Source of the DNA: Clytia hemisphaerica
Taxonomy: Eukaryota; Cnidaria; Hydrozoa; Leptothecata; Clytiidae
DNA length: 64,000 bases
Assembly (NCBI GenBank): GCA_902728285.1
Contig: CACVBU010001193.1
Location: forward strand, 124,001 to 188,000
Direction of reading: 5' to 3'
Below the pieces are notes generated by a model, which was not told the DNA's origin, ran no database searches, and was given only the letters and a program-made list of their open reading frames with translations. Position 1 is the first letter of the stretch; every line of letters begins with the position of its first letter. A program made the position numbers and the translations under genes. Positions 19,701 through 54,630 of the stretch are shown piece after piece.

Positions 19701-22700
19701 ATTTGGAGAAACGTCTTGATCCTTTGTTACAAAGGTAAGGCCCGCTTGGTAGCATTCGATAAATTTTTTCTGAATCGGTCTATTGCATTGACTAGATATG
19801 AATAATTCTTGTCATAGGATTCAAAATTTGAACATATAAATTGTTTTTGTTCGATTTATGAAAGGTCGTTGATGATATTTTTTACGATTGAGAATTTGAA
19901 TCGAAATCAGTATCTCAGCGGTCTTTCAGTTGTTAGTTTCTACTATTGTTTCACATATAGACTGAAGCAGTACGATAAAGAGTACAGGGAGAAGAAATTG
20001 GAAGGAAAGACAATCGATCGAAGTGGACGAGCTGAAATCACCAAACAAATCTCTGACATCAAGTATGAAATGTTGCATTGCTTCTACTAAAAAACCACCA
20101 ACAAAATACCAATTTTTAAAATCTTCTTTAAATTCTTTTCAGACTGTTTTCTTTGCCTGGCTTTTTTCTTCTTTAATCATTTATCACCAACTTCATTTGT
20201 ACTTCACTTCCTTTGCAGAGCCCTACCTATGGACGAAATACTTAAAGAATCTTATGACATTGATTTCATGAAAGTCGCGAAGAATTTTGTAAGTTGCTAT
20301 CATTTTCTGCATAAATATCTAAGGTACTTCTTTTTAAAACCACTTCAATTATGTAAGGGTTTGTATCTGGCTTTGTTACTATTGTCATTTTCCTGAAAGG
20401 AATTGTGTTTTGAACATTACATTATATTTTTATCCTCATCGGCCAGGTTCCAGATCGTGAGGATTTCGAATGTCAAATTTATTGGTGCAATGTGCTTCAT
20501 CCTTCAATCAACCAAAACAAATTCACCAAAGAAGAGGACAGTAAACTAATCAAACTTGCCAAGAAATACAAAAATCATCGCTGGGAAGATATTGCTAAAG
20601 AACTCGATGTAAGTTTAACCTTTTTGCGCTTTTAATATTTCAATGTTTCACATTTATTTTGTACTGAGAAACTCTAAGAGATTCCCCCTATGGACACGCT
20701 AAATGCACGTAAAGTTTAGCTTTGTTAATGATTTTAAAGGATACAGGAAAGTCATGAGGGAATTCCCAATAACTGGAATAGCCAGAGAGAAAATGGAAAT
20801 CGACTGAAATATGTAGAGCCAAAACTGGTCATCTTATAAGGCAATAGCCTGATAGTTTGATTAATGGAGTTTCGGCTTCGACTTATAAAGGTTTTTATTA
20901 TAGAAATATTATTTCATGGTGTCTTTTCTTTCAGACCAATCGAACGCCAGTTCAGTGCTTACAACGATTCCAAAGAACATTGAACAAAGACATCATCAAA
21001 TCGTAAGTGTTCTGACAACGTTACATATTTCCCTGCTTATTTTCTTTTTTAATAAATACTAAGTGTTAAAATAGTTTAAAAGTGTTGTGCATTAACGCTA
21101 GATTCGAAATTATTTTACAAATGTGTACTCTTCTCTTCGTTAGAAAAGTTATTGTTTTTTATTGACCGGGCCTCTACCTATTGGTGAATTACAAATGGTT
21201 GACAGTTCCAATTTGTCGTCTTTTGTCGATGGCGTGTCCTCCAATTTGTGCTTGATTTGCATTCTGTTCTTAAACTTGCCAATCATTTCGCGGACCTAAA
21301 ACAAATCACATGTTTCGCTAAGTTTTTGAGTGCAATAGTGATATTTATTAATTTCGCTTAGCGAAAGTATTACGATAGGCTTCCGTGTATGTATGTGGCG
21401 AGACATTTTTTGGGGCGCAAATTATGGCGTGGGCGTTTGGCTGCGGGCGTACTACGGCCAATATTCTAAAGGTGGACTCACTCACAAAGATAAAAAGTGA
21501 TAAAAAACAGGGCTTTTCTTAATAAATAAAATACGCTAGTGCAAGAAGTGTAACCAAGCCTTTGTAAACATTCATCGTGAGAACTTTTTAATGGCTGCTT
21601 GATTGCACATGCTTTTGAAACTTGCTGCTGCTGTATAAATTTTTATCATGTTTTCTGGTCTTTTGTAGAGTGTTTAAAGAGGTTCAATATTTGTTTACTA
21701 CTAAGTATTTTATGTTTGTGTAGTTAGTGAATGCACCAACAAATTGATCATGCTCAGTAAGTAGTACAAAAAGAGTTAATTTTCCAGAACAACAACATTA
21801 ACCCTCTCTTCTCTTCTTCACCAAAACTACAAACAGCACATAGGTATGATGTTTTTTTCTTTTTTCACCAGATAGTTATGTGTTAATAGTGAAACCAGTT
21901 GTGACAAACAGTCAGTTTTAGCAAGTACCGTGAACTGAAGTCGGGTAACTTGATTGCTTCAGTGGAGGGTAACTTGCATAGCATAGCTATCAAATGACTG
22001 ACCAATCAAAGCAGCAAGATTTCAAAACAAATGAACTACGCAGCTCCGCTTGCAGCTCTAACCTACCATTTTTGTTTTGATTTAACTTTGTATTTTAATG
22101 ACCAAACGGATCATTCATTTCTTGAGGGCTATGGAGTTAGTTCATGTAATGTTTCCAGCTCACCCAAATAGACACTAATACGCGTGCGTAATTTGCCGTT
22201 CTTTTCAACCACAAGCAGTTAATTCCCGTGACAATCAAAGACGAATGAATCTCTAGGGGTGGATCAGTCACTTTCGGTCGGGGTTGTGGACGGCGAAATA
22301 TGAAATTTGTCGTTCTTTAAAAATTTTTCGTCCACACTGATGCAAGTTACCCGTGCCCATCTCATGATATTTCTTAGAAATCATGTCAAATTGAAATTCA
22401 GCAATCATTTTTGTATAGTCGAAACAACCCTGCCAAGACACTGCCGTACATTGTCATTGTACGGTGATTTACGGTGGGTAAGGTGGGGTGTTACAGTACA
22501 GCAGATTTCAAATTAACCTATTTTCACCGCCGTACAAAGAACATTTAGATCCAGCCCACCATACACCACCGCACAATGTACAGCAGTCCCTCGTTAATGA
22601 TGACAGTTTTTTATCCGATGAAGTTTGATTGGTGTTAGATGAGTTTGGTTAGTAAAAGTTCCAGCTTTTCCTTCCCGATGGGATGATAGATATTGGCTCG

Positions 22701-25700
22701 CTCTTTAAGCTTTAGCGTGGGCGTCTGCTAATAAGCCGTCGGAATGTAAAAAGAATGGGCAACAAGGTAATAAATCAAACTAATCGAGCTTCAATCAAAC
22801 TTCACCGATCTTGATACACCTTTTGCTAATTAGGATTTTCATTTTGAATCATGGTACCGTTGTTTGTATAAGATTCCCATTTCCGCACTACTTTTCTGGA
22901 TTCTTTCCTCTATATATTTTCCAGGGGATAAACGGCAAGATATTGGGAAGGGTTTGTTTAATGGGATGCAGTTTAAAGCAGTTATGAAGGAGTCAAAGTT
23001 TAATCTCAAGGAGTATTATTTCTTTAAAGCTTAAAGTTGGCTAGTTTTTACCCTGCAATTTTCTAGTCAAGAAGCTAGAGCTCAACTACTCAACTGCTTT
23101 TTGCCTTTAATTGGCTCTTCCAGAAAATGACCGTATATGGGGGTGTAGGATATAGTGTCTGGAGGGGGGTAGTGAAAAATCTACAAAAATTGCCTTGTCC
23201 TGGGGGGGGGTAAACTTGCTCTCGATGGGATCAACTGATGCTTGTCCGGGGCGGGGGGGGGGGTTAGACCTGTTGTCCGGGGGATCAAAAGTCACAATGT
23301 CCAGGGGGGGGGCGGGTTTCCAAAAAATGTTATACCCTCCACCCCCCCCCCCATATTCAATTTTTTTCTGGAAAAGTACTATGTGAAAGTGAAAGAAGTC
23401 TTTATCACAAGTTCCTTCAAAGCACAAAACGAGGTTTCTAGCATCAAAGAATGAAAAGTTCATTTTTTCTTCTTCATTTTCAAAAAAATTTGAAATTATT
23501 TTTCTCAAGTATATTGCAGTTCTCTGAATTATTCTGAATTGAAAGATTTTGTTTACGCTTTATAGAATGGAATTCTTTAGTCGCATTTTTGAAGGAATCT
23601 TTTTTTTAATGGATTGAGATTTTTCATTAAAAAAAAACGGGTATCTATGACCTGTGTGTACAATATATTGTGTATATTTTCTGTAACACTTCATTTAAAA
23701 TGCATAGCGTCTTCGTCGTTGATGTTCGAGTATATTATGCGAAATTTTCGACTTTAAAGTCGTCTTGTTATTATTACATTGTATAGATTTCGTTATCTGT
23801 ATTCGGATTAGTCGTTTGCTCTTAAAGATAATATTTACCTGTGGATCCATAAAAACATGTGCCACCAAAAGATACAACCCCTTAAAAATAAAAAAACATG
23901 TTTTTCATCTAAATGATATCCAACCAATTCACAGCCTGTATCGATTGAGCACTCATCAGCGGACTGCTCGGATCAAAACGTTATTTAAGCTTTAAAAACA
24001 CTGTTAAGACCAAGACGAAGCTGATGTAATTACACTGCGAAACGTGATATAGCAGTGATCCGCTGCCCTCAATATAAGCAGGTTTGTGTACTCCTATTAA
24101 GGAAGGAGAAGTGACTACGTTACGATTTTGAAAATCGCGGATAGTAAATTGATGATCTAAAGTCAGTCAGGATCTAGACAAATGAAAAACTTACCGTCTG
24201 CGCTACAGAAAGCACATCATTATTATAAACTTACCGCTGGCGAGTTCAGGATGACGTAGAGATACAACAAACCAGTGTTTATGGTCGTGAAGTTACCCAA
24301 GATGAGAGGTAGCCCGAGTAAAGGAACCAAAATCAAGAAGGCTTTTCTCGAGTTTCTGTTTAAAGTAAAAAGTAACAAAGATTTATTAATAATTATGAGA
24401 CTTGAGAAAGGAGCAGCAAGGCAGAGAGACGAAACTTCTTCAAAACTGACACTTCAAGAGTGTACCGAAAGGAGCGTATATATATTATATTCTGCAACTT
24501 ACACTGTCCGCTTTGTAGATTTGATTTGCTCGTCTTGTTTTGTCAACCCTCGGAAAACCATGCAAAATAAAATGATTTCTACCTAAAGTAATTCAAAAGC
24601 TATTTGTTTAAATTTGAAAGAATCACTATTAATGTTATGGAAAATGAAGCTTATTTGCGAAGCAAGCCAAATATTTTCCAAAAATATCACTCGTATAATA
24701 ATATCACAAAAGAAAAGAGAGGCTTCATGAATAAACTTACAAATTGCAAGAATGCCATTGGTCCTTTAATGATCCATATATTTCCATCAATACTCAAACA
24801 ACTATAGGAAAATATAAGAAATTTATTAGCAGCTCACATATGCCAGGGCGTGCATTGGATTTTTTTAAACGTCACACAAACCAAATTAAATTAGAAGTAA
24901 AACCGATCTGCACATTAAAAATCTTACAACCAAACAACTTTTATTGAGGAAACACTTACTTTTGACTGTTGTAAAACAATTGATAATCTACCATCAACAT
25001 CACTGACAAGATCACCAACGGTGTACCTGGAATGCCAATGGAAAAATTTTAGAACCTCATTGAGGTACTTCTTAGCATTAGGATCCTTAATTGTGGATCC
25101 TTTATCATAATCACAAATTTGCCCTTTTTTGTGACGTTAAGAGTCGATATTTGAAGCAATATAGGATAGGAAAAAAAATCTATTGTTTAAAAAAGCGTTA
25201 CCGTATCCGAAAGCACAATAATACATGAGAAGTTTCTTTTTGTTCGGTAAAATCAATTTGAAGAGCGCAACCAGGTGAATTCCCTCTACCAAAAACCATG
25301 ACAATGTACCGAACAGTCCATAATAAACTAATAATACTGTTACGAAGCAACCAGCCTAAAAAATATTATTTGGACCCGTTTTTATTGAGTTCAGTATAGC
25401 GATGGAGCAATGGCCAAGTGTTTAAAGTGTTACGAACCAGGGGTTCATAGTTGTAATCCCCGTTTCTTCCTATGTCCCGATCAGTTCGTAGATCAGCTGA
25501 TTAGGGACCCCTTAGAAACTATCGAAAGACTCTAAAAGTTCTAGATTTTGGGTTTCCAACGTAAAATATCGAATCAATGATAACCATGTCGACAAAATGT
25601 GATATTTCGAAAACTGGCTTCTGGAAGAATGTATAATTTGTGCAATACGGTAATACAAGGCCGAATGCGTAATGAAGTTGATGAGAGAGTGAGAATTCCA

Positions 25701-28700
25701 TGTTTTCTCTAAACTAAGTGCAGTCAAGTCGAATCAGGAAGAAACAACAGAACATCAAGAATTACGTGTGATTCGTGGTGCAGATGTTGGACAATGTTTG
25801 GTATTTGGTACATGACGATACTGAACAAGTAGATGGCCATCAAGTTCTTATGGATCAGTACTTTAATCGTGTTCTTTACCCTGTTTTTGAGAAGAATATA
25901 TTGTACACTTTATTCGCCAAAATATACTCTTTAGTTGTTTGTGGATAGTACTCTGAATATTTTAATGGAGAGTGATTAAAGGAATGATATTAAAGAGAAA
26001 CGCTCCCCACCAACCAAGTTGAATTATATTTCTTGAGCCGGCACCGGTTAGCATGATTGGGCATGGTTTCATAGATTCTGAAGAACTTATTCAATCACTG
26101 AACGAGGATATTCAAAATGGACCTACTTGAAAAATTTGAGAATGAGCAGACCAGTGATGATTGAAACAACACTGACAGCATTTAACAAATCCTCCAATGT
26201 CCTCCATGCTGGCTTCTCCAATACATTCACTTTTGTCACACTGTTCCTCTCTTGTATTCGTGGTAGAAACTCTCGAATCTACAAAATTTATAAAATTCAC
26301 GCCAGGCTTATTAACTTTATCATATTCATTTCTCAGCTTTTTTATCGATTTTTAAGTAATGTATCTACTACTTACAGTGTCCAATGATATATTCATTTTG
26401 GCGGCTATTTCTTCCAAAGTTTCCTGCGGAAAACGTATTGAAGAATAAGGTTATCCAGTTCAGTTCAATTCAATCCTGTTCAAGACCTAACGAGGACCCG
26501 CCCTAATAATTAGGTTCAAATGGCGTGATCTTATTAGAATGACCATGAAATTGAGTATTGAAGAGGCGAGGAATCTCACTGAGATTTCTGTAAGGTGTAA
26601 GAAATGGAACTTCGCAACTTTCGTATCGACACTATCAAACGTATACAACAACACTTACATACGAATCTATTTCATTATCACCACCATATTGGTTGTTTTG
26701 TTCTTTACTACTACGTGATGGAATAGTCCATTGTGCAGGTTCAATTTTGGCGTCAGGTTTCGCAGACTTTTGTTTTTCAGAAGCTACTCCGGTAATGGAA
26801 ACTGCCCAGGATAATGTATGAACTATAATCCTATAAAACATAGAACGACATTATATCATTTCGTAAATAATTTGTATATGATGGTCAAAAGTGGTCATAC
26901 TACTGTCATAATACTTTTGGCACATGAAATCAAATTTGTATATGATGGTCAAAAGTGGTCATACTACTGTCATAATACTTTTGGCACATGAAATCACACT
27001 GCCAGTTGGCTGTCAACATCCCTCTTATATGTTTTGCTATGTGATTGTGGACTTATAATATAATAACTGGGTTGGGGGAGAAGACCAAATAGGGTTTTGG
27101 GGCCAGGTAAGGGGGAGGGGCTAAAATCTGAAGGGTCTAAACATATTTGTGCTTTATAAAAGTACTATTTTATGCATATAAGCGACCGATCCCGTACCAT
27201 GCACCTCTGAGTGTCAAAGTCTACATCATGTGGCATTTGACACGATGATGAAACCTTTCAAAAATGTTCTTTCTTGGTATTCTTCTTAGTATTGGGTACA
27301 ATGACAGGATAACTTACACATTGAGTTCGGACTTGCACCTTTGAATGTAATTATTGATCATCGCTGTATAGTTCTGTAAAGTTGAAGACAATATTTTGAG
27401 TTTGACAGTAAATTTGCGTCCCTTTATAAACGCAGAACGGTGTGCACGTGTGCAAGCTTGTCAGCATTTACCTTCATTATAAGTTAAGCGAAACGTACAA
27501 CAAATCCTTCTATTTTTCCAAGTTCCTCGATTATTTCCCTTGGAAGTCATAATGTATCTGTAAGCCTAGTATTAAGAATCTTTTTTTTTCCTTGTATTCA
27601 TCGTAACCACGCCTATGGCAATTGTATGTATACACTCGTTAAAGCATTCATTTAGAAGTCGTCGAAGATTAGCGCGATTTTGATGTCAAGAAGCTAAGCA
27701 ACCTCAAATAAAATTTAAAGCAACATTTATACTTACTGTTAGCATCCCATTGCAAAGATCTTTTGCTGAAGTAATACTATCTGCGTTCTAAAAAGAAAGA
27801 AAAATGAGAAAGTTTCTTTCGGTTTCTTTGTATTTAATTCAGTTCAAATTTAACTAAAAATGCGAACGAAAGTCTTACAAACAAGGTGATTTCTTCAGGC
27901 TATTTCAAGATGAGTTTCGTTACCTTGACTAAAGAATTCAATGTTGTTCTTTTGCCTTCAATGAATGATTGACCTTTCTGTTCGTACTGTTCAAATAGAA
28001 CACTAAATATTTGGACAACTTCTTTCTCAATGGAACTCTTGTCGGGTGTATATGTGATGTAGTACCGCAACTCCGTCATTCGATTATAAAGTGAATCCAA
28101 ATCCTTTGGGATGTCGATTGTATCCTGAAAAAGAAACCAGGTACCGTATAACCAGAAAGTCAATAAAACAAACAGATCAAGAGTACCAGCCAGCGGCTCT
28201 CATTCCTCGTCTTTCAAAAACAGTTTCCAATTGTTTTGATTGATAAGTGCCCGATTTGCTTATCAGGGTTCGTTTTTCTTCTCTTGGAATTCAAGAGCGT
28301 GATATCAAGGGTATTCATTACTTACTCCTCCGTAAATGGTGTTATTTGCAATTTTACATGCGCAATAATTCGGCTTCGACCAGACGATCGCTCCTTTTTC
28401 GCTTTGTAAACATTTCCTTTTCGCTTCACCTGTTTTTGTAGTATAAAAAAGAGTTTAAACAAGGATTTAAGAAGAGACAGCTCCTTGCAAGCAAAGAAAA
28501 CTAAACGGTTAAGGTTGTAAACCCCGGGCTTGCCTTGGAAAAGGCTTGAAAGTCTCTCTGCTCAGTACTTTCAAGCTTGAACGAAGACTAGTAAAAGGAA
28601 ATCTTTGGATAGTCATAACACTGCAATTTTCCAGACTTATCCTGTTTCTTTCGTGACTGCTACAATGGCATATGGTTAAGGAGCAAATTCCCTCGAGTAC

Positions 28701-31700
28701 ACACCATGATAGTGAAGGCCTTTGTTTTTGTTTTTGATCAAGCGACAGTCACCGGTCGAAATTCCTCCTACTTCAGTTCGTTTCCATGGCACTCCTTCAT
28801 GTTCCTCACCGCGACAGTAGTCTGTTGAAGAAAAATGTTATAGATATATTATGTTACTATTCAACATTAGAAACCATAGGCCTTCGAAACAGTAAAATGT
28901 TACTGTAAAAGTGTACGCTTGGTCGTTTGTCATTTACGATTGAGCCATTCGAGCCACAAGATCTAAAAGTCAGTTCGATCAGTCATAATAGACTGATACT
29001 TAAGGGCTTCCATGGTCGTAGATGCTGGGTATCGTGCAGACCATAAGGGCACTCAAAGGGATTGTAAAAAGTCAAGTGCCATGAAAACTGGAAACCCTTT
29101 TCTTTAAATCTTGTGCAACCAGTGCGATAAATGAATCAACGAAGCCTACAAGTTTTGCATTGCGTCTCATCGGAAGCGTCCTGACAATCATCCACACCAT
29201 CGCATACACGATCAAGCCAAATATGTTTAGAGGAGTTGGTGCATTTGTGAACCAAACTACCGTACTTCTTCATAAACACCTCTTTTTCTGACGAAAGAAA
29301 GAAGAAAGAAAGAAAGAAAGAAAGGGTTTTTGAATTTAGGAGTGAGTAGGTATCATCGTTTATCCTTTCTCATATTCACTTAAAATGTTTGAAAAATCAG
29401 TCGGCGATGCGGTCTTATAAAGGTCTGAATGATTGGGAAAAATCGAAAAATTTACAAGCGGGGTCGTTTATTGGTCATTTGATTTAATTGTATGTGGTGA
29501 GGCAATCGACACCGGAAAAGAGCATAATTCAAACGAGTTGAACTCTCTTTGTCTTCTATTGTTTTGGAATGGTTGTTTTGCAATTGATTGGCAAGAATAA
29601 AGGACTTTGAAAACTACCGTACATACCTGGACATTTGTTAGAAGAACATGATTGAGATTTCAGAAGGCTATCGCACCATCCTTCTTGAATGACCTGATGG
29701 TAAACTCTCCAGTTGAAACATGACAAACGACAATACTTTGTGGACCAGGTCAGTGGATTGAATGATGGACATTCAACATTCAAAGGATTCGAACAAGCTA
29801 CAAGAAGGAAAGAAGTATTTGATGACTTCACCATCCATTATATTTACAAAAGTAACGTTGGCAAATACAAATTCCTTTATTATAATACGGATCAAACAGA
29901 GATTGCTAGAAGAGCTTTCGGAAAACGATCCGTTTCTTATTCTATCCATAAAGGTTCTGATCGACCTTTATCAATTATTATACCGTACCTTGGAGAAGGT
30001 CTTTGTCTATCATCAACTTCTGACATTCTTCTTCACCGGAACACGTCCTTTTCTGAAGGCCGACCACCTTCAATCCGCCCTTCTTTTTTCCACCTTTTAT
30101 CTCCGCTCCACCATACGTATAGGTTTTGGTTTTTATACTAACAACGCCCTTCATGGCAACGCCTTTTGTTTTCTTAGTGGATCCTCCATTTATTATTGTC
30201 ACACCTCCTCCTTTACGCTTGCTGGTTGAATGTGAAACACCGATACAATCAAGTTGTCCAAAGAAACATCTACATTGCAAACAGAAAGGGAGGTCAGCCA
30301 TTCGAACTTGCTGTACTGTTTGGTGGTGTATCTCTGTACCGTTCAAGAAACAACCTTCAAGAGTATAAAAAATAGGGAGATAAAAAGATAATATTAGGCC
30401 AATTTAACATGTTGTATCGGCTCGAAAAGAACCTTGTCTTTAAAAAGTAACTAGTACCTAGTTTAGAAAACTCAAGAAGAAAGTTCCCTTGATCAGGGCT
30501 CGGTCATACTTCCGACCTACTATGTTATCCAATTAAATTTGCGTAATGAACGATAAAATAAATATGAGAGGCCAACTTACTGTTATCTCTGCTGAAGAAT
30601 GTTCGTGCAAGGTCTTGACTACAATTTCTGCACGCCGCTGAAAACCTGAAAGAACCAATATATTTGCTGACGCTGCATATAATCTCGCCCTCCTTAGTAC
30701 AACGACAAGCCAGTTTTTGACCACCAACAATTATGCTCCACTGGCGAAAAGGAACATAGATAGCTCTCCCTTTACCGGTAGCATCAATACAGTTCTTGCA
30801 ATGATATTTGCGTTGGCCAGTGGTGTAGGCTTGGACCATCTTTTCACAATCTTGGAGATTATAACACTGGTTTTCATCACCGTATGAGCAATACATCTGT
30901 TGATTCCAACTCCTGCATTCGCATTGAATACACGAGTAACCTTCCACTTGAGGTCTGGACCCTAATTTAATTCTTTGACGTGTGAATAATGATAAGCAAT
31001 GGTCACACTGGATCTTGGTTGGAATGAGTTTACATTTGACACATAATGGTTTGACGTCACCCTTGATGTTACGTTGGTAACAAGACATGCTACCATCTTG
31101 TTTGCATTCACAATATGAGCAATGTGTTGTGTTCCATACTCTACCTGGTGTCTTTGTGCATGATGTCGCCAACACTATAAGGGAAAACAAAGAAATTGGC
31201 TCACTACAGTAATTGGGTACTAAGAATACTATCAAACCTAACTTGTCTAATGGTTTGATGGTTATGCCTAAAGGGATCCTGGAAATTTTCATTTTCCTGC
31301 ATTTTAGCTGTTTTTGCTCTATGCTACACGAAGGGATTCGAATAAACCCCCCCCCCTCATCAAAATAGAATTTGATTTCTTGTATTGGATACAATATGCT
31401 CCTAATTTTCAGTCTACACTCAGAAAGAAATGAATGGTTGAGTAACAAATATCTTACTGATTTTATTGGAACTCCGAATTGTACCCTGGCTTGCAGATGA
31501 ATTTTTTTTCTTATTGTTCGATTCCACACAGAGAACATACCTGGTTTTGGTTTCTTCTTTTTCTTGGCATCGCAACTGTGCCAGCTGGACAAAGCAAACA
31601 GCAAAATCAATGACAATGTATACACATTCATTGCAAGAGAAATTTTAGTGCATTTTGTGTTGAGATATTTTCAAATGAAAATTGATATTTCAAAATTTGA

Positions 31701-33423: not shown

Positions 33424-36400
33424 TGTTACCAGCTTTTCTCAGGATTGGCTCATTAGTTTTTTCTGATTTTTTGCACAATGATGCAAAATGGCAATGCCCA
33501 GAACGTGACGGAGCCCGATTTTTGAGAAAAAATTTATTTGGGTAAATTTGGGCCAAAAACTACCTAAAAATAGGGTTTTTTGGACTTTGTGCAAAATCCT
33601 GTCATTACTTTTTCCTGATTTTTTGTACAAAGATGGAGGGCAAGATTCTCTAAAGAATGGCTGAAGTGGTTTTTCCCGGAAAATTCTTATTCGCCTTAAA
33701 AAACGGATTTTCGTATTTTGGGGGAAATTCCCTTTAACCAAATAAGAAAATATAGCTTTTAACAATGTTGACTCGTTATTTTTTTCTGATTTTTTGAACA
33801 ATGATGCAAAATGGCAATGCCTAAAATGTGTCGGAGCCCGATTTTCGAAAAAAAGTATATTTGGGCAAATATGGGCCAAAAAAACTGCCTAAAAATTGGA
33901 CTTTGTGCAAAATCCTGTCATTACTTTTTTCTGATTTTTTGTACAAAGATGGATGGCTAGATTCTCTAAAGAATGGCTGAAGTGGTTTTTCCCGGAAAAT
34001 TCTTTTTCGCCTTAAAAAACGGATTTTCGTATTTTGGGGAAATTCCCTTTAACCAAATAAGAAAATATAGCTTTTCTCAAAGTTGACTCATTATTTTTTT
34101 CTGACTTTTTGCACAATGATGCAAAATGGTAATGCCTAAAATGTGACGGAGCCAGATTTTCGAAAAAAAATATATTTGGGCAAATTTGGGCCAAAAACTG
34201 CCTAAAATAGGGTTTTTTGGACTTTGTGCAAAATCATGTTATTACTTTTTTCTGATTTTTTGTACAAAGATGGAGGGCAAGATTCTCTAAAGAATGACTG
34301 AAGTGTTTTTTCCCGGGAAATTCTTATTCGCCTTAAAAGACGGATTTTCGTATTTTGGGGAAATTTCCTTTAACCAAATAAGAAAATATGGCTTTTCTCA
34401 ATGTTGACTCATAATTTTTTTCTGATTTTTTGCACAATGATGCAAAATGGCAATGCCCAAAGTGTGACGAAGCCAGATTTTTAAGGAAAATTATTTTGGG
34501 CAAATTTGGGCAACAAACAGCTTAAAAGGTTTTTTGGGCCTGAATGGTTTAAGTGATTTTCGTATTTGGGGAAATTCCTTTTTACCATTTTACATTATTC
34601 AACACGCAAGCTTTATTTTTCCATTCTGAATTTTTGTACAATTATTGTCACTTTTTTCTTATTTTCATCTGATGTTAATCATTAGGTAGGTCCATTCAGC
34701 ATGTTGCTTGTTCTTCTTCTTTTCACCACGTGTAGACAATGGACACAGCAAGATGATGACCGGCTTATAGAGGGAATCAAACTTTATCAAAGAGACTGGA
34801 TATTAGGTAAGTGAAACCCCTAACATTTCCATTTGTCTAGTGATTGAAGTTCTCATAAGGCATTCTAGTATGCTGCATCGAAAGAAACTTTTTTTTTTGA
34901 TACATTATCAGGGGGAATATTCAGACCGTACTAGCTATAAAAGTTTTTTGTTGGGAAAGTTTTTAGTCACCCAGCTAAAGATATTGTCACAACCTTGTTC
35001 AAACTGAATAGGGCAGCCTTCAGTCGGCAGGGTAGTTGGGAAATATTCTGGTTACCATACAAAAATATTAGCAACTTTCCCTGTATTCTTTTGACTGAGG
35101 CTGTTAATCTGTAACAATCTACAGGGATATAACAAAATTTACCATCTCAAACAGAGAAACTCCGTGACCATGGAATAAATCAAATACTTTGGCTCATTAA
35201 AGATATAGGTTTTTCGCTATAGGATTTTATAACCACTCAGCCATCATCTTCCTACCAAAGCCCTTTCTTAGATCTTCACTCTGTCCCATTCTCCTTCAGT
35301 TGCAGACCACGTGGAAGGGAAGACACAAGACCAATGCATCCATCGTTGGGAACACACATTGAACCCGAACATCAAACGTGGCAAGTGGAGTCAGGAAGAA
35401 GACGAAGTATGTTATATTCCTTTCCTCCTCTCTTCTCCCCTCCTCTATTCATGTGACGTAGTCTGCCTTAACTAGTCAAGTTTTTTTGTCAAGTTCGTTC
35501 TTTACATTTTTTTATATTTTCAGGTTTTCCCCTTAATACTTCAACGCTGTTTTCACCTGTTTCACGCTTTTTTGAATAACTAAATCTGAATCCAAAGCAA
35601 AGCCAATAAGTTTTTAATCTCCGGTAATACTTAAAGGTCTCCAATCTTGAAATAAGGTTGTCATATGTTCTTCAACCATCATAGTTTTCCGACTTTTTAA
35701 ACTATTTAATTAAACCCCCCTTAGGCACTGATGGAAGCCGTTTTACGACTTGGTAGGAAGAATTGGAAAGCTGCAAAGGAATCAGTACCTGGACGAACGG
35801 CCGCTCAGTGCAGAGAGAGGTAGGCACGATACCTCCTTTAAAAAAATTAGATTTGTTCTTTACCGGTTCTTTTACCAGTACATGAAATTCACTCTGCAGC
35901 CAATTTTTTGTTGCAAGGGGTCCCAAATGACCTGGAGATCAAAATGATGGCAAACATACAGTAGAGGCAATACACCCCCTCTGCAGCAGCTTTTCTTTTT
36001 GCGAGGGGTGCCAAATGACCTTAAAGTTCCTCAGATGATTATTTTTGGTGCTCCTTTCCTTTTTTTCTCAAAGAGATACTATATGTATAGCAGTTTATTA
36101 GCCAAGAAAGGAAAACATTCCATGCTCGCGTTATTATTAAAACACTTTTCCGAAAAAGAACCAAAATCCAAATTTCTTGGCCAAACCATCACGCCACTGC
36201 AAACCGACAAAACGAAAAAGGAAATTCTTGTTACTTTAATCGTAGAAATTTTAGCGAGACTAATTTTAGCGTTTTAGTGAGTTTTCCCTATTTTCGCTAA
36301 AATAAATCTCGCTAAAACGCACCGAATTGACAGATCGCTAAAATTTATCCGCGCGAAATTTTTCGAAAAGCTGATTCGCTAAAATAAATCCAGTATGTTT

Positions 36401-39400
36401 TTTCTTTCATTTTTTATCATTTTGTTATCATTTTCATAATTTTTTTCAAAAACTAGTAATGGGGGCGTAAATTTCCAAGTTTTTCTGCTCTTAGTCAAGA
36501 ATTGTGTTACGAAGACATGTGACTATATTGATTTTTGTATTTAAAAACAATATTTTATTCTTCAAAATCATTGCCCTCGCTAAAATTAATCCACGCGAAA
36601 TTTTTGTCAGATGAGTATTCGCTAAAATTTATCCACACGAAATTTTTTGAAATCGTGATTCGCTAAAATAAATCTAAAAAAAATCAAGATTTTCCTGACT
36701 CGCTAATATACGCTAAAATTAATCTCGCTAAAATTTCTACGATCAAAGTATCTTTATTTAATGTTTATTTGTTAAAAATGTCAGTTGTTTGTGGTAACCT
36801 GATTGTTGACATGTTTGCGTTCCATTTTAGATTTGTGTCAAGATTGGATCCAGATATAAACGCAACGTTATTTTCTTTCGAAGAAGACGAGTTATTAATT
36901 GAACTTGTCAATCAGTTTGGAATAGGTAACGCACGCCCGCGTTCTCACATTAATTGTTTTTTTTATCAAACCTTTCCAATCAAAACACTTTCTAGTGTCT
37001 TAAAGGCTAGAAAATAGATGGCGAAAAGCCGATCTTTCTGATCATTATGATGGCGTTCGCAAGCAACGGTTTAGATCACCAGGACAGACCAAGACAGTTT
37101 TCTGAGAAAAAAGATGTAACATAGATAAAAAGAGGAACCTTTTCCAACAAAAATCTTATAATTGTGTCACTCAATAACGCTATGACAAGGGGTGTGTAGG
37201 TGCTATCGGCCAAAAGTATAGAACCAATTTTTTTTGGCTGATGCTTGTTAGTCGTTTTAATAGTTTTGTGATAAATATCTTCAATACTCCCTTTCTCGTA
37301 GGTAAATGGTCGATGATGACAAAATATTTCGACCGGCGTCAAGATTCGTTTTTATTGAGACGGTATAAACAGATCATGCCCAAGAAGGTGAGATATGCTT
37401 TTGTCATAAATTTCTCGCTCAAATTTCTGGCTTTATGAAAGTACGCGCGAAAGCTTGCCTCGTTTTGCCGAAAAATTCGTCCCCAGGCCCAAAAATCAAA
37501 ATTTCTTGAATAGGAAAAACCGATATTCATTAAAGGAAAAAGTGTGCAAGATTTCAATCAAATCGGGCTATTTTTGAAGTCTCCAGTCTGCCCTAAAGTT
37601 TTGAGGTGACATATACAGACATTGAGAACAGCCTCCAAGTTAAGCTACTAATCAACTGAACGTAGTGAAAGCAAACGTGTTTCGCGAATGAAATCGAGTT
37701 AAATTTGCGTCTATTCAATGAAGAGATCTAAAATCTCCAAGATAAAGTTTACTCTCAGCTTATATACAACATGATGGTTATATGTTAAAAGATGTTATAG
37801 TTCTTCAATCAAAGTCTTTTCCATAAACTCTCGATGAAGTATTTCATTTCTTACTTTCTCCGTCTCTGTAGTGGTTACCCCACAAAGATGAAACGACAAA
37901 GCAATCAATTCCTTCTGCTTTTTAAGATATTTAACACTTTGAACCACCCAATCTAACATTTGCTGGTTTGTCGGTGAAGGGATTTTAGAGTTTGGAAAAT
38001 CTTCTAAAACACTTGAAATGAATTTGTGCCAATGAGTTTGTAATCTTTCTCGGAAAAGTTTGTTGATACAGAGAGTAATAGGTTGACATTTAGTGCTGCA
38101 ACCTGTTGGTATCGGTAGAATCTCTGTTCCCTCCTCTTTAAGTCTTTGTTGAAAATTTGTGGTGAAATGACCTTCAAAAGCATCCAATAAAATCAAAGAG
38201 TTCGCTTTCTCGTTATTGACTGCTCTAAGATATTCTGACCAAATTTGATCAAGCCAGGTTTGCATGAGTTCTGCATCAATCCAGCTTTTTTGATTCGCTT
38301 TGCAGAAGATTCTTGTGGGAATGTTTAGTCTTTGTAAAACTTTGTCACTCGTTTCTTTGAATATGACCAAAGGTGTAAGAATCTTTCCATTTGCAGTTAT
38401 CGTCAGTACAACCGTCATTTGTTTCTTTTCAATATTGGAGGTTCGCACAATGTATTCCTTGGCCCCTTTCTTTGTTGGACATTTTGACGAAACGACGTCG
38501 AAAAATACTGGTATCTCATCCATATTGCAAACATTAGATAGGTTCTTGTCCGTTAGAATGGATCTGGCATCTTTGTAGAATCTCTTTAGATTATTTTCAA
38601 GTTCGTTTGGTAATTTTTGACTTAACGGAACTGAGCCTTCAAGAATGTTTTGATGTCGAGCGTAAAATTTCTCGACCCATCCTGTGCTCGCAGAAAATGT
38701 TGGGTTATGGGGTCGAATTATAAGTTTGGCTTTCTCTTGAAGTCCATATGTGGTAATTGGTACGTTCAAATCTTTTTGCACTAACATCCACTCTAATAGT
38801 TGATCATCTAACGCTAATGGATAAGATAAAGGTCTGCCAGCACCTGTGGCATTCTTTCGGTTGGCCTGTGTGATAGGAGGAGTTTTGACGATACCTCGTA
38901 CTGTCGACTCGTTCAAACCATATACTTTTGCTGTGGCGTTGAAATTACCTGTGATAGAGTAATGCTGTCGAATGTCCGCTTTGTCGTCTTGTGTGAATCG
39001 ATGGCGAACTTTCTTTGGAGGTTTGATATCAGGTGGAGCGAAGGATGTGTGATGGTACCAACTAACGCGCTGCTCATATGAATGATAATGTTCAACCATT
39101 TGCCAATAGTCGTGTTGTGAGCTCCTACCGTCGTTCTTTGTCTGTTGTGTGAAGGGGTTGCACAACTTTGTTTTGTCTGGATGTAAAGATATGGTCCAAT
39201 CTGAACGAAAGAATAAGAGCCGAGATAAGTTTAAAGATATGTTATAAAATTCTTCAAATATAACCAAGCTCAACCCATGAAGGATGAAGGTTGGTGGAAA
39301 AAATCTTCTGGTAATTTCAATAAAAATGCACATCTCCACACATATTTAAAAAGTTAGATGAACCAACGCGCCTTCTTGAAAAATACCTTTGTACCTACCG

Positions 39401-47822: not shown

Positions 47823-49049
47823 ACGTATTTAAAAGATTTATTTAGATAAAGAGAATTAAAACTATAAAACTATAAAACTATAAAAACTAAATAAGAGACT
47901 TTTGCAGTAAAGCTTGTTTTGGTCGCTGAGCGCTTTTATACTTCCATTGAAAATTAGATAAAAAGTTGCGAAGTGCACCACGAGCATTAATGAATGTTGA
48001 ATGTTGAGCAATTTTGGTTTTAAAATTTCGATTTCTTTCGAACAACTTCAATTGAAGAATAAAGATCATGGAGGATTTTGTTCTCAACTGACATTCATTT
48101 CTCTTTTACCTGTTCAGACTATATGTGCAAGAAGTGACATAGTGTCCTCCCCCCTTTGTAAAGTCAGAACCCCGACTTTGCCCCAGTTGTTGCTTGTCTG
48201 AGAGGTGAACGTGCGAGTCGCACATTTACCCCAGACCAAGTAGCACTGAAAGATCAAAAGCTGAACGAAGTCTTGTCGTCTTTCCGTGAGTGAGGTTGTG
48301 ATATTTTCATTTTTATTTATTTATTTAAAGACAATTAACTTTTGTAACACAAAAGACCCGTGCCGGGACTGGCTCCGGTAATAGTATATACCAGTTTAAG
48401 AAAAAAAATTTTTTTAATAAAAAAGATTTCTCTTTTACTTTACCCTACTTTAGTGTCTTAGTGGTTGACTTTGCCATTTATATTTTTTCAGTATTCGATG
48501 ATAGACACTGCTAACGTGTTTATGCTATAGTGTCTGATTAAATGCTCTCTGGCACTCTTTCTGGTTATTCAAGGGCTATGTTCGTGTAACACTTCCTCAA
48601 ATTCGATACTCCCTTATGAGCGCGGGCGTACCATGGCCTCTGCTATTGGCTAGTATAATTTTTGAAAACGAAGGTGATGTCTGTTTCATGAACTCAGTGC
48701 CGTCAAAAATCATCAGAAAGCAAAGTTCATTCAGAAAGTAGGGTGGGAAAAAGTTCTATAAATGTTGATTCTAAGACTCGGAATTGAACCAAAAGAAATG
48801 TGCATACGCGCAGCTTCCGATTTATATCAAGAAAAGTTTTGCATTTGAAAAGTATTATCCTGGCTGTATTTCAATCTTTTTCCATTTTTCTTACGCATAG
48901 GTATTTTACCTGTAAGTTTTTTTAATCGATGCCTCATTCCTGGATTGCTTGGAACTAAGACTATAAAACAATATAGCATTGCTGTTTGTGGAATTTCTAT
49001 ATTTGCTTTATTTCTCCAGGTTTACCTGCTGTCATCATAGTCTGAAAAC
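47823..49049. other. SLC19 upstream region
   Basis: No coding region is recognised. A splice acceptor (TTTATTTCTCCAG, ending 49019) lies 30 bp before the SLC19 start codon, implying a non-coding first exon further upstream, within or beyond this stretch. Confidence 0.45.
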
Positions 49050-51258
49050 ATGGCTGGAGAATGGATGAAGCCCACCCTGATCCTTTCATTGTATGGTTTC
49101 TTCAAAGAGATGAAGCCATCGGAATCATTCCTCACACCATACCTCAACAGCACATTTAAAAACATCCCCAAGAAAACCATTTCTGATGAAATCTACCCTA
49201 TATCCACATATTCGTATCTCGTCTTCTTATTCTTAGTACTCATGACCACAGACTTTCTACGTTATAAACCGCTAGTCATCATTGAATCCTTAGCTTACCT
49301 GGCCACACGTGTTATCTTAGTTTGGGGTCAAGGTGTTTTGATCATGCAGATTATGCAAATGACTTATGGTCTTGCAAGTGCCACTGAAGTTGCTTATTAC
49401 TCCTACATCTATGCACTTGTAGATCGTGAGCATTACCAGAAAGTGTCCAGTTATACTCGACTTGCTGTTTTAGCTGGCAAAGGTGTTGGTGATTTGAGTG
49501 GACAACTTCTGTTATCGACAAATACAGTCAATCTATTACAATTGAATTACGTTTCGTTGGCCAGTGTGGCTGTTTCAGTGATCGCTGCCTGTTTCTTACC
49601 TAAAGTCACAGGTTCTGTATTTGGAACCATGAAAGAGGAGAAAGGATTCGAACGGTTTGACAACGAGGAAAGGATAGACGATGAAGATCAAACCGACCAG
49701 ATAACTTCCAGCAAAAACATTGTCCCACAAACTTGTTCCGTTAGATTGCAACAATATTTTAAAAATATTTGGCACACTTTCAAATCATGTTATTCTGATA
49801 AAAAACTTTTACAATGGTCATGTTTTTGGGCCATCGCAATGTGTGGTGGCCTACAAGTAGAAGATTACGTCATGAACCTGTGGTCAGCTTTGCAAGGTGA
49901 TGAGATCAAGAAAGCTTACAATGGAGCTGTTTTTGCTGCAGGCACCATAACAAGTGCCGTTTGTGTGTTTCTCTTTTCTATCGCTAAAGTTGATTGGAAC
50001 TCAGTATCGGAAGTTGTAATTGGTTGTCTCTCTATCGTGCAAAGCACCATGGTCTTTAACATGGCGTGGACCAGTGACGTCACGATCGCTTACGTCATGT
50101 ATGTGATTTTCAGAGCATCGTATGCTTTCAGTTTGACTGTTGCAAGGTAGGTTGGGTTGTTTTCTTTAGTTGGTATGAATACAGAAGATGAATGCCAAAA
50201 CTAATTAGTAGCAATAATTTTGTCGATAAGGTATATGTTTTCAACTTGTCAGTATATTTTTCATGATTAAAGTTTTCAGATAGCAAATCGTTTGACGATG
50301 GATGGTTTTGGTTTAGTATTTGGTTGGAACACTCTGGTCGCTGTTTGTTTGCAAAGTATTTTGACGTTGATCGTTGTTGATAAAAATGGATTAGACCTTC
50401 CTGAAAGCAAGCAGGTATAGTTTTGTACATGATGTGTGCATGGATATGATAATTATAGCCTAAACCCCGGGGGGGGGGTAACCTTGATGGCCGACGGAGA
50501 CGTACCACTGGAGTTTTAAAAGCGGACCCTGTCAGATATGAATGTTTTGTGAATTTTCTAATTTCTACTCTGAAAATTGTACAAAATCATATAAACATTT
50601 TGAAAATTCGTAAATTTGGGACCCTCTGTCAGATATCTTCAAAACTTAAGAGAGAGGCCCTGACCAGCAGTACTTCTCCGTACCCAATTTTGCCTAAGTG
50701 CTCCCTGGGGCCTCAACACAAGCACTATACAGAGAGGACACCGAAAAAGTAACGAGCACATTAATTTTCTTTTGTAATGTCTGACATCTCTTTCTCAATA
50801 TAGATCTTGCACTTGCAATAGCATTTTTTTTATCCACAATAATAGAACGAATTATCATATTCTGATCTCTAGAGTGATTTTGATGAAAACGTTGACTTGC
50901 ACATTGTCAGTGAAGCCAGTACGTCAATATCCCTAACGCCACTGGTACCGTAAAAACATTCAATGTCCTAAATTACATAGTGGTTACTAATAGTTTCGTT
51001 TATTCTAATTCTCTCCAAAACTTTACATGTGACCTTCATTCCTTGTTGGTTTATTGGGAGACAATGCGAGCAAAATTGTGTGTATATCATTTTTAAATAT
51101 TTTTTTTCTAGTTCGTGATTTACGGATGTTATTTTGTTTTGGTGGCTTTGATCTTCTTTCTGCTTCCATTATGGCACGTCTTGCAAAAGTCCTTTGCGTG
51201 GATGAAAAGTCGATCCGGCCGACAGAAGAACGACACATCTAAGAATTCAACTATTTGA
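49050..51258 (+). CDS. SLC19-family folate/thiamine transporter
   Basis: The SLC19 carriers (reduced folate and thiamine transporters) are 12-helix major-facilitator proteins of the plasma membrane. Coding exons: 49050-50146, 50273-50414, 51112-51258, joining in phase to 461 residues (human SLC19A2/3 about 497). Family signatures are LYGFFKEMKPSESFLTPYL near the N-terminus, YSYLVFLFLVLMTTDFLRYKP, ATEVAYYSYIYALV, a charged central loop (~200-240), an IYNGA-like AYNGAVF, and SFQIANRL just after the first splice junction. The exon 2 acceptor is the AG at 50271-50272; the stronger-looking TTTTCAG a few bases later would create a stop. The substrate (thiamine versus folate) cannot be told from the sequence. 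An alternative terminal exon at 50873-50953 is possible. Confidence 0.9.
50466..50750. repeat. G-tract repeat in SLC19 intron 2
   Basis: CCCCGGGGGGGGGGTAACC starts a stretch with GACGTACC, GACCCTCTGTCAGATATC and CCTGACCAGCAGTACTTC. It resembles in layout the insertion at 58800-59110 (CCCGGGGGGGTACTAGG..., CTGGTCAGGGTACC, repeated GTAGGGT). Probably the same or a related repeat family. Confidence 0.4.
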
Positions 51259-51410: not shown

Positions 51411-52680
51411 AAATTATTCTAATATAAGCGATCTCATCTCGTTCGTTCGTTCGTTCGTTCGTTCGTTCGTTCGTTCGTTCGTTCGTTCGTTCGTTCGTTC
51501 GTTCGTTCGTTCGTTCGTTCGTTCGTTCGTTCGTTCGTTCGTTCGTTCGTTCGTTCGTTCGTTCGTTCGTTCGTTCGTTCGTTCGTTCGTTCGTTCGTTC
51601 GTTCGTTCGTTCGTTCGTTCGTTCGTTCGTTCGTTCGTTCGTTCGTTCGTTCGTTCGTTCGTTCGTTCGTTCGTTCGTTCGTTCGTTCGTTCGTTCGTTC
51701 GTCGTTCGTTCGTTCGTTCGTTCGTTCGTTCGTTCGTTCGTTCGTTCGTTCGTTCGTTCGTTCGTTCGTTCGTTCGTTCGTTCGTTCGTTCGTTCGTTCG
51801 TTCGTTCGTTCGTTCGTTCGTTCGTTCGTTCGTTCGTTCGTTCGTTCGTTCGTTCGTTTTCGTTCGTTCGTTCGTTCGTTCGTTCGTTCGTTCGTTCGTT
51901 CGTTCGTTCGTTCGTTCGTTCGTTCGTTCGTTCGTTCGTTCGTTCGTTCGTTCGTTCGTTCGTTCGTTCGTTCGTTCGTTCGTTCGTTCGTTCGTTCGTT
52001 CGTTCGTTCGTTCGTTCGTTCGTTCGTTCGTTCGTTCGTTCGTTCGTTCGTTCGTTCGTTCGTTCGTTCGTTCGTTCGTTCGTTCGTTCGTTCGTTCGTT
52101 CGTTCGTTCGTTCGTTACCAACTTTCCTCAGGATTGAATCATAGGAATCTTTTGATTTTTGGTACAAAGGTGCAAAATGGTGGTGGTAAAAATGTGACGG
52201 AGCCCGATTTTCCAAAAAAAAAAATTTTTGGGCCAATTTGGGCCAAAAAACGGCTAAAAAACGGGTTTTTTAGACTTTGTGAAAAATTGGATCATTAATT
52301 TTTTCAGATTTTTTGTACGAAAGTAGGTAAAAGATGGCTCAAGCAGGTTTTTGCAAAAAAAATTTGTTGGCTCAAAAAACGCATGTTTATCTGTAAGAAA
52401 CACTATTAATAAGCATAGATCAATGTTTTTAGCCAAATTACTCAATTTTTTTATGAGATAGATGTTTTTTTTTTTGCTCGCGAAGTCTTGAATATGAAAG
52501 ATTACTTCAAGAGCATGAAATTTTGGTTTCTAAACGTTTTTTTATAAGAAACAAACGACTAATTTGGATAGATCGTCACTATTTGTGTTCTGAATGATTC
52601 TTTAACGGTCATGCTCACGTAGATATCAATTATATTTGTTAAATGCATAACCAGGTAGGTCCATAAAAGTATCACTTGTT
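51411..52680 (+). mobile_element. Helentron/HINE-like element, copy B
   Basis: The expanded GTTC microsatellite (51437-52115) is followed by GTTACCAACTTTCCTCAGGATTG, by GTGACGGAGCCCGATTTTCC-type core sequence, and by an AGGTAGGTCCAT end (52654-52665), the same order as copies A and C. The CTACCTCCGGGTACC head is missing at the left. It lies between SLC19 and the HEPN gene. Confidence 0.6.
51437..52115. repeat. Very long (GTTC)n microsatellite
   Basis: About 170 consecutive GTTC units, with only two visible irregularities: loss of one T near 51702 and an extra T near 51858. On the minus strand it opens two long overlapping NERT-repeat reading frames that are artefacts of the 4 bp period. Confidence 0.98.
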
Positions 52681-52869
52681 AAAATATATATGGACATAAC
52701 TGAATACGTAAAATTTAAGGGTTTAAAACAGGTCCAGTTAAATTGTCCCATGTTGATCTCTTGTATGTCAACATAAATTTGTATCCAGAGACAATACATG
52801 AAGTTTTATGACTACATATCATTTTTATCGTTTCAGCGCAACAAAAAAAAAACAATAAAACAATAAACA

Positions 52870-54630
52870 ATGGCAACAGCTGCACCACCATCAACGACAT
52901 TACATTTGCATCATCTACAATTATTTGGTATTTGTTCAATCGGCCAATATGCTTTACAACAATTACTAATGGATTTCTCGCTTACTGCTCATCCATCATC
53001 ACCAAACGCTTTCGAAGCATTGAGTCAGATTCTCACACTCCATAAAGACAAGGTGCGGAAAAAGTTCAGCAGTATCTTCACAACTCCTACAGTAAGAGAT
53101 GCTATCTACCTAGATGTTTCCAAGGATATTTTCCACTCGAGCATTCCAATTGACCGACTGGATATCAATACATTGATGGAGATTCTCCGTGAAATCAAAG
53201 ATTTTCATTCTGCAAGCCCAAGTCACCATGCTGGATGGACTTGCTCAGATATATCGAACCACCGGACTAAGTGCTGTGTTGACTGTGACCACAAATGTTC
53301 CATTTGTGGGAAAGATCAATGCAAAAAGAACATATGCTGTGATTCAAAAAAGAAGTGTGCTCATAAATGTAATGTGTGTAATTCAGAGCAGTATGATTGT
53401 GTTGAAAACAAGTATGTGTGCTGTTCATCTTGTAAGATGTGTCTCAATTGTGTTTTGAATAAACATTCCCTTTCCGCGTGGAACGAATTGTATGAAAGAT
53501 GCGTTGATAGGACGATCGGTGGTATCTGCGATTCTTTGAAATTACGACTGTCCATAAAAATCATTCATATTTTCCGCAACATTACGATGCATTTGACAAG
53601 TGCAAAATGTGATGACATGGATAAAGGATCTTTCAAAGACCCAAAGGCACCGGCTCATTGTGACACATGGAAGAAAATAAGAGAAACTCTATTTTTTGCC
53701 GTAAAATTTGTTTTGGATGTCTTGAAAAAGAATGGCCCAATAGGAACGAATGAGTACGATCAGCAGCTGTATACCCTTAGATCAATTTCCTCGGCAACTA
53801 GTGTAGATCCTCTGAAATTTTTTGATGGTAGAATCCAAACATTTCTGAGCATTGAGGGCTACACGCATACGTCGGAAGTATTGGAGGATATCTGCCAAAA
53901 GTTCGAGGCTGTAGATTTAAAGATGAGTGAGAAATCTTTAAAACTTGACGTCAAATTTGCTCTTCAGAAAGATGTCGACTTTGATTTAGATTGTGAAGAA
54001 GCAGTAGACATTGAAAATCGATTCCATATGGCTTTAACAAATTATGAAAGTTCTCTTCAAGCCTACATGGTCGACTACAGGTTAGAAAACTCTCACATAG
54101 CCGAGGCTCATATGATTCGTATTGAGTTCAAAATCAGTTCAACTGAACTTTCTTTTAAAGAATACGCTGACCGAAAATCTGGTCAATCATTGAGTTTGTG
54201 GAATGAGATAAAGAAAACTTTTTTGACAGAAGAATTCCAGAAGAAGTTTCCGTTTGCTACAAAAATAACACGAGGACATTGGGAGCTGGGATCACTGATT
54301 ATTCATGTGGTCTTGTTGAAGGAGAGTGGGGAAAATTGGACGGAATGTGAACATCAGATCATTGATTTGTTTTTACCATCACTCTCTGCCTCTGTTGTAA
54401 ATTATCTGCCACTTGTCGAATGCTGCTGCAGAAGGCTCAGCAATGATGATGCGATTGGATCAGAACCGTCAGATGCGTCTGGTCAATCTGAAATGAAAGT
54501 CACCGTCACATTCAATATCCCTACAACCTCTGTAGAAAAATTTCTACATATGAATTGGCTCTTTCCTGATTTTCTGACTGCTTTTTGGCAATCATCATGG
54601 AAGAATGGCGTCCAAATAAAAGGTAGGTAG
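52870..54630 (+). CDS. DZIP3-type HEPN protein with inserted cysteine-rich module
   Basis: Single-exon ORF of 586 codons. Residues 40-123 (AFEALSQIL, VRDAIYLDVSKDIF, IDRLDINTLMEILREI, then GW) look like the first half of a DZIP3-type HEPN domain. Residues 205-245 complete it, with RNITMH (236-241) fitting the HEPN R-x4-6-H motif of RNA-binding or RNase helices. Between them, 125-194 is a module with about 18 cysteines (CSICGKDQC, CNVC, CCSSCKMCLNC) that probably binds metal. The C-terminal ~240 residues have no recognised domain (GSLIIHVVLL resembles the beta-rich tail of invertebrate HEPN proteins). A splice acceptor (TCGTTTCAG) lies 31 bp before the ATG, so the 5' UTR is probably spliced. 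The stop sits beside AAAG|GTAGGT, a good donor, so an alternative 3' exon is possible. The role is unknown; immunity or RNA decay is a guess from the family. Confidence 0.7.
   Translation: MATAAPPSTTLHLHHLQLFGICSIGQYALQQLLMDFSLTAHPSSPNAFEALSQILTLHKDKVRKKFSSIFTTPTVRDAIYLDVSKDIFHSSIPIDRLDINTLMEILREIKDFHSASPSHHAGWTCSDISNHRTKCCVDCDHKCSICGKDQCKKNICCDSKKKCAHKCNVCNSEQYDCVENKYVCCSSCKMCLNCVLNKHSLSAWNELYERCVDRTIGGICDSLKLRLSIKIIHIFRNITMHLTSAKCDDMDKGSFKDPKAPAHCDTWKKIRETLFFAVKFVLDVLKKNGPIGTNEYDQQLYTLRSISSATSVDPLKFFDGRIQTFLSIEGYTHTSEVLEDICQKFEAVDLKMSEKSLKLDVKFALQKDVDFDLDCEEAVDIENRFHMALTNYESSLQAYMVDYRLENSHIAEAHMIRIEFKISSTELSFKEYADRKSGQSLSLWNEIKKTFLTEEFQKKFPFATKITRGHWELGSLIIHVVLLKESGENWTECEHQIIDLFLPSLSASVVNYLPLVECCCRRLSNDDAIGSEPSDASGQSEMKVTVTFNIPTTSVEKFLHMNWLFPDFLTAFWQSSWKNGVQIKGR

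Follow-up and report, generated by a model that had tools for sequence, protein, structure and literature searches.

A family of class-B receptors with modular ectodomains and no GPS in the hydrozoan Clytia hemisphaerica

Secretin-type (B1) receptors of class B are thought to descend from adhesion (B2) receptors (PMC8584163), and one account describes them as an innovation of Bilateria (PMC4302439); these and all later citations refer to extracts of the papers named. GPS-less adhesion receptors are known, making up 12 of 40 in the sponge Amphimedon (PMC4302439), and human ADGRA1 is without a GAIN domain (PMC11697300). Class B also takes in Methuselah-like and NvX/PARF1 receptors, whose ectodomains are of other kinds (PMC4768249, PMC3261222), and NvX and PARF1 carry a somatomedin B domain (PMC3261222). 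The analysis described here concerns a 64,000-nucleotide stretch of the Clytia hemisphaerica genome (417 Mb in 951 contigs), positions 124001-188000 of contig C823, hereafter the window, and the minus-strand receptor gene within it. Judged by its sequence, this gene is real and encodes a predicted intact class-B (7tm_2) receptor that belongs to a paralogous family. Among the matches listed from the open-access literature, none described a class-B receptor that combines VWC, LDLa and HRM and lacks GAIN.

The window family resembles secretin-type receptors (secretin, CRF and calcitonin receptors) in pairing a predicted HRM with 7tm_2, apparently with neither GAIN nor GPS, in its profile match to CRF receptor 2 (CRFR2) and in its position on the B1 side of a 28-row tree. 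It differs from them in having VWC-like and LDLa modules and a linker of ~165-210 amino acids (aa), in a seven-transmembrane (7TM) region outside the sampled B1 clade, and in coming from a cnidarian, whereas the cited extract of PMC4302439 treats secretin-type receptors as bilaterian. The long modular ectodomain, the HRM placed before the pre-transmembrane (pre-TM) region and 7tm_2 are shared with adhesion receptors, of which ADGRD1 is the nearest in the PDB, but GPS, room for a full GAIN and a tethered agonist are missing, and the 7TM region is also outside the sampled B2 clade. Like the GPS-less Amphimedon receptors and human ADGRA1, as far as the extracts describe them, the family has 7tm_2 and apparently neither GPS nor GAIN; some N-termini in the sponge set are short and the models possibly incomplete, whereas the window ectodomain is long and confirmed by paralogues. 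The combination of a class-B 7TM region with a non-GAIN ectodomain is also that of the Methuselah/NvX/PARF1-type receptors, many of which have somatomedin-B-like modules where the window gene has VWC/LDLa/HRM. To our knowledge, those receptors have no GPS.

A preliminary description of this DNA had joined twenty in-phase exons into a receptor of 1014 residues. Rebuilding the chain from the minus strand gave exactly 1014 aa with no stop and with GT-AG borders at 19 of 19 introns, and the phases of exons 6-20 recur in a paralogue on contig C254, so that the claim of a real receptor gene was borne out. Exon 9 (51 nt) and exon 20 (42 nt) are of the same length in both genes, and exons 4 and 5 of C254 were taken as a single uninterrupted open stretch. 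Because C254 shares exon phases from exon 6 on, the small exons 9-12 that precede the first transmembrane segment (TM1) are judged genuine. Codon-usage log-odds had no power as a coding test, and were near zero or below for well-supported TM exons also. Intron 10 includes a 64-bp tandem duplication (26869-26996) with two copies that are 100% identical.

The Pfam scan of the joined 1014-aa protein detected 7tm_2 and neither GPS nor GAIN, in keeping with what had been read from the sequence before. No GPS or GAIN was found in minus-strand open reading frames (ORFs) of at least 18 aa in three frames across ~28.4-26.1 kb (one frame to ~26.36 kb). Four loose GPS-type patterns produced four matches in the window, two on the minus strand (19700, 43895) and two on the plus strand (1008, 59045), all of them outside the receptor gene; the match at 19700, the only one of the four with a C.C.HL core, meets a stop a few codons on. 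A six-frame search of the whole genome for GPS (PF01825), with 53 matches at E ≤1, gave none on C823, C419 or C128. Hidden GPS exons were rejected on the pattern, ORF and genome-wide searches. The preliminary description had named such exons, between 28326 and 26127, as the finding that would overturn it; none were seen there, and exons 8-13 recur in C254, again with no GPS.

GPS was also detected in none of the four assembled paralogues (C254, C435, C775 and the plus-strand copy on C419), and none was seen by eye in the pre-TM exons of the C38 copy. When the 102 genome matches to 7tm_2 were clustered at 12 kb, 64 loci were obtained, 9 belonging to the family and 55 to other receptors. A GPS match lies within 15 kb of the 7tm_2 match at 0 of 9 family loci versus 34 of 55 others (Fisher p 0.0005, which is indicative only since the loci are non-independent and the matches are lower bounds). 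Members of a single-exon 7tm_2 clade are found at 14 of the 21 other GPS-free loci. On these searches, the missing GPS is a trait of the whole predicted receptor family.

The pre-TM linker (residues 528-735) contains two cysteines, as had been counted earlier. HRM and TM1 are ~207 aa apart in the window gene and, read by eye, ~165 in C775 and ~185 in C254, or about 165-210 overall, versus ~280-330 aa in adhesion receptors (PMC12716839, extract). Across five members, one Cys and one Gly are the only invariant linker residues. No GAIN sequence match was obtained in the linker, and no GAIN is among the 9 PDB matches of a profile built from HRM and linker of the five members. By these lengths the linker is predicted to leave no space for a complete GAIN before TM1, and the earlier claim of a receptor with no GPS and no full GAIN is upheld for the window gene and extends to its paralogues.

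Related exons were found with the receptor query at C38, C419 (both strands), C308, C775, C254, C435 and C128; at C38, both C419 copies, C775, C435 and C254 the similarity includes TM exons. The family consists of about nine loci, seven with similarity in ectodomain and TM exons and two placed by proximity. Where the preliminary description had suggested a lineage-specific receptor type, these searches show several copies of the receptor in a single genome. Exons were assembled by eye for C254, C435, C775 and C419 (plus strand), and the pre-TM exons were read in C38. In whole-protein Pfam scans of the four assembled paralogues, 7tm_2 is over the cut-off in all four, LDLa is over it in one and weak in three, and HRM is weak in two. 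At C38:2484000-2490000 (L049) there appear to be two tandem sets of ectodomain exons, first 3-4-LDLa and then 2-3-4-LDLa, which suggests that this paralogue has a duplicated ectodomain. At C308, the exon-3 match precedes the exon-2 match. The C435 paralogue (L051) ends after TM5 in the stretch read and is possibly truncated, or its later exons are further away. Viral and bacterial sequence collections, tried as a source of relatives, gave 8 and 47 pattern matches, respectively, none confirmed.

The 7TM region clearly belongs to class B, scoring 97.8 bits against Pfam 7tm_2 (cut-off 20.6, E 7.9e-28, residues 737-955) and retaining the Cys at the start of TM3 and in extracellular loop 2 (ECL2), W..VEG in TM3 and the PLLG motif in TM6. 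The preliminary description had called the helices clearly B2-type and the receptor adhesion-like, a label that was not sustained. At the 177 columns that discriminate ADGRD1 from the secretin receptor, the window TM region shares 31 residues with each, and it has 4 of 19 B1-fixed and 5 of 41 B2-common residues. Trees were built with 6 B2 and 3 B1 reference receptors, all from the PDB and none cnidarian, and the window 7TM falls inside neither the B2 nor the B1 clade so sampled. In a 10-row tree its branch is long and arises between the B1 and B2 groups. In the 28-row tree, which includes same-genome receptors, its branch is again long and goes to the B1 side (99/95) but not into the B1 clade, and the B2 rows do not form one clade. 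When three paralogues are included, the four members form a family clade (100/98) apart from B1 (99/99) and B2 (95/97); this tree is unrooted and the branch between the family and B1 is very short (0.029), so that it does not fix the origin of the family. From these sequence comparisons, the predicted 7TM region is a separate class-B branch beside B1 and B2.

Sixteen other same-genome receptors, Methuselah/NvX-like in type, form a clade in the 28-row tree (100/99; same-genome genes only) that leaves out the window gene. The genome contains a large, mostly single-exon 7tm_2 set (loci L001, L004, L007-L013 and L016-L023), many members of which have somatomedin-B-like Cys modules. This set has no GPS match within 15 kb and resembles NvX/PARF1/Methuselah-like receptors.

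The ectodomain modules named in the preliminary description fared differently. LDLa passed the Pfam cut-off when exons 5-7 were scanned alone (Table 1), and scored 21.4 bits, below the cut-off, in the whole protein. HRM is absent from the whole-protein scan list of the window gene and reached only sub-cut-off scores in segment scans (cut-off 26.2), and the HRM segments of two paralogues, scanned alone, gave 20.4 and 17.2 bits. The best PDB match of the five-member profile is the CRFR2 ectodomain (E 0.0098), and its 9 PDB matches comprise 5 to CRFR2 and 4 to PI3K p85. The HRM assignment is supported by the CRFR2 match but never attains the Pfam cut-off in the window gene or its paralogues. The VWC-like repeats are likewise upheld in part. 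Residues 23-407 include three C..C.C.{4,9}C cores, a number equalled by 4 of 10,000 shuffles, and the resemblance in Cys spacing is thus beyond chance, but no Pfam VWC match over the cut-off was found in exon 2 of four family members (the window gene and three paralogues). A VWC2L-like match (E 0.89) was present in the exon of one of these three paralogues and not in the other two or the window gene.

The 1014-residue model holds through exon 20 but its end does not. The last 25-44 residues match eight unrelated places in the genome, and from 23769 downward the DNA consists of a dispersed repeat that has at least 40 other matches, with identities of up to 99%. The C254 paralogue splices after exon 20 (...RDEE) and continues with VKKEIRKRLL..., and a donor is found at 23838 in the window. 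Most likely, on this sequence evidence, exon 20 ends at 23839 and residues 968-1014 are intron read-through, the last ~24 of them derived from the dispersed repeat. A helix-8-like exon pattern, chosen post hoc, has a single match on both strands of the window, at 21149-21295. This is probably the last exon, predicted outside the interval 23695..31631 first assigned to the gene, and it brings the corrected receptor to 1015 aa.

Table 1. Predicted exons of the receptor gene and associated features in the window.
Feature	Position	Strand	Content and basis
Exon 1	31541..31631	-	Start codon and signal-peptide-like leader; leader judged by eye
Exon 2	30581..31174	-	Cys-rich repeats, VWC-like spacing; Cys columns kept in three paralogues; no Pfam VWC over cut-off
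Exon 3	29989..30354	-	Another VWC-like core and Lys/Gly-rich insert; matched at C38, C308
Exon 4	29627..29797	-	Cys/Trp module (CSNP...W...C...C); found also in C254, C38, C435, C419 (plus strand)
Exon 5	29150..29287	-	LDLa domain; Pfam PF00057, 25.4 bits (exons 5-7 alone), cut-off 24.1
Exon 6	28705..28821	-	HRM first half; PF02793 18.9-22.5 bits (sub-cut-off) and CRFR2 ectodomain profile match
Exon 7	28326..28429	-	HRM second half; same basis as exon 6
Exon 8	27924..28124	-	Pre-TM segment, probably helical; counterpart by eye in five paralogues
Exon 9	27737..27787	-	17 residues including invariant linker Cys; 51-nt same-phase exon in C254
Exon 10	27318..27373	-	Linker; same-phase C254 counterpart
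Exon 11	26659..26830	-	Hydrophobic stretch, then hydrophilic linker; same-phase C254 counterpart
Exon 12	26376..26423	-	16-residue linker exon; C254 counterpart 42 nt, same phase
Exon 13	26127..26278	-	Linker end and TM1; chain rebuild and C254
Exon 14	25766..25880	-	TM2; Pfam 7tm_2 and C254
Exon 15	25202..25355	-	TM3; Pfam 7tm_2 and whole-genome 7tm_2 match at C823:149197
Exon 16	24960..25026	-	TM4; Pfam 7tm_2 and C254
Exon 17	24741..24801	-	ECL2 Cys and TM5 start; Pfam 7tm_2 and C254
Exon 18	24503..24582	-	TM5 end and intracellular loop 3; Pfam 7tm_2 and C254
Exon 19	24235..24355	-	TM6 and TM7 start; Pfam 7tm_2 and C254
Exon 20, corrected	23839..23880	-	Remainder of TM7 in 42 nt, followed by donor GTAAAT; C254 exon 20 also 42 nt with donor and fitting exon 21
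Dispersed repeat in intron 20	23560..23769		Earlier model's last ~24 residues and stop; may reach below 23560 (query end)
Proposed exon 21	21149..21295	-	Helix 8, then the C-terminal tail; 48 aa (VREMIGKFKNR...) ending in a stop
Host Myb-repeat exon, one side of receptor	20935..21002	+	Myb-repeat search; boundaries read from sequence
Host Myb-repeat exon, other side	35314..35406	+	Myb-repeat search; ends approximate

The reading that we favour, as somewhat the more probable one, is that these genes encode a family of uncleaved class-B receptors that would act in the manner of secretin receptors. The predicted layout is a signal peptide, VWC-like Cys repeats, LDLa, HRM, a mainly helical-looking linker of ~165-210 residues and the 7TM region. 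Because GPS, a GAIN-sized domain and a tethered agonist are missing, such a receptor would presumably be neither cut nor switched on by a tethered agonist. A putative external ligand, plausibly a peptide held by HRM, would act on the 7TM region as in secretin receptors, the VWC-like/LDLa part would add selectivity or anchoring, and the signal would pass through G proteins. Several points weigh against this reading. Hormone binding by the predicted domain is uncertain because HRM never reaches the Pfam cut-off, and a very divergent GAIN remnant is possible. In the PDB the top score goes to an adhesion receptor, ADGRD1 (66.7 bits, versus 57.7 for the secretin receptor), the proposed exon 21 has the support of one paralogue and a motif, and two of the nine loci, C308 and C128, match in ectodomain exons only, with no TM match to the receptor; these two were placed in the family by proximity because their 7tm_2 match is ~16-17 kb away.

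The same observations can be read in other ways. The family could derive from a receptor near ADGRD that lost GAIN independently, and would then not be a branch tied to the origin of secretin receptors, which we regard as a real but doubtful possibility. ADGRD1 still outscores the secretin receptor when the 7TM region alone is compared with the PDB (64.9 versus 61.7 bits), and tests on the 10-row tree kept the pairing of query and ADGRD1 (approximately unbiased p-value, p-AU, 0.065) and rejected those with the secretin (0.009) and calcitonin (0.024) receptors; however, the pairing of family and ADGRD1 is rejected once three paralogues are added (p-AU 0.022), and the 28-row tree draws the window 7TM to the B1 side. 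It seems unlikely that the pre-TM region is instead a degenerate, uncleaved GAIN, with a helical subdomain A and a collapsed subdomain B, in an adhesion receptor that has lost nothing but autoproteolysis. The linker does occupy the place of GAIN after HRM, exon 8 looks helical where subdomain A can have 2-6 helices (PMC11697300, extract), and the 7TM region has its best PDB match in ADGRD1, but the linker is, at the lengths given above, insufficient for the 12-14 strands of a beta-sandwich, little in it is invariant, and its profile matches no GAIN in the PDB.

Two further explanations question the gene itself. The window gene might be a decaying copy without function, and the repeat inserted in its last intron and the end of the C435 copy after TM5, as read, could be taken that way; with ~967 stop-free codons over 20 exons, every splice site intact and the Cys pattern conserved, this is very unlikely. 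A mistaken joining of two transcripts, one with the ectodomain exons and one with the 7TM exons, is hardly credible, for in several paralogues both sets follow each other in this order on a single strand and the C254 phases agree throughout exons 6-20, although AATAAA/ATTAAA motifs occur in the introns, as is expected in AT-rich DNA.

If the family of uncleaved receptors is as we favour, it may tentatively be seen as a third class-B branch in Cnidaria, HRM-bearing, GAIN-less and uncleaved, that preserves or re-creates the step from adhesion to secretin receptors outside Bilateria, an extension that we consider on balance improbable. GAIN loss would presumably lie on the path from adhesion to secretin receptors. 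A multi-copy family with HRM and 7TM but free of GPS provides concrete genes with which the step from adhesion to hormone receptors can be tested, and the same genes offer a test of activation without a tethered agonist.

The receptor gene lies antisense within an intron of a Myb-repeat gene, between 21002 and ~35314, and the nesting proposed in the preliminary description was confirmed. Plus-strand Myb-repeat stretches lie at ~20471, 20956, 35335 and 36880; when these are put together by eye, their best match is SNAPC4 (84.3 bits, E 6.6e-23), and c-Myb scores almost as high (82.6 bits). The predicted host gene is probably SNAPC4, which is preferred over c-Myb because of the order of its Myb repeats, an order that we take to be that of SNAPC4. 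Elsewhere in the window are a transposase-like ORF with DDE_1 and HTH_Tnp_Tc5 domains (37798-39345, minus strand), an exon for a reduced folate carrier of the SLC19 type (49041-50147, plus strand, E 7.1e-117) and a 587-codon open frame, partly Cys-rich, with no Pfam family over the cut-off (52867-54627, plus strand). A TCGT tandem array of ~170 copies occupies 51439-52116, and a long array of the same repeat is present in the C38 paralogue (L050, ~2010-2340).

Contig C900 (L058; 14,551 bases) appears to be mitochondrial. Pfam domains identify COX1, CYTB, ND1, ND4L, ND3, ND6 and the ND5-specific domain, and ND4 and ND2, which match the antiporter family, were named by position. No tRNA was detected by ARAGORN with the bacterial code in the 9.9 kb read. 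COX1 is at the very end of the contig and has three in-frame TGA codons. The minus-strand order is ND2-ND5-ND6-ND3-ND4L-ND1-ND4-COB-COX1, presumably the medusozoan gene order.

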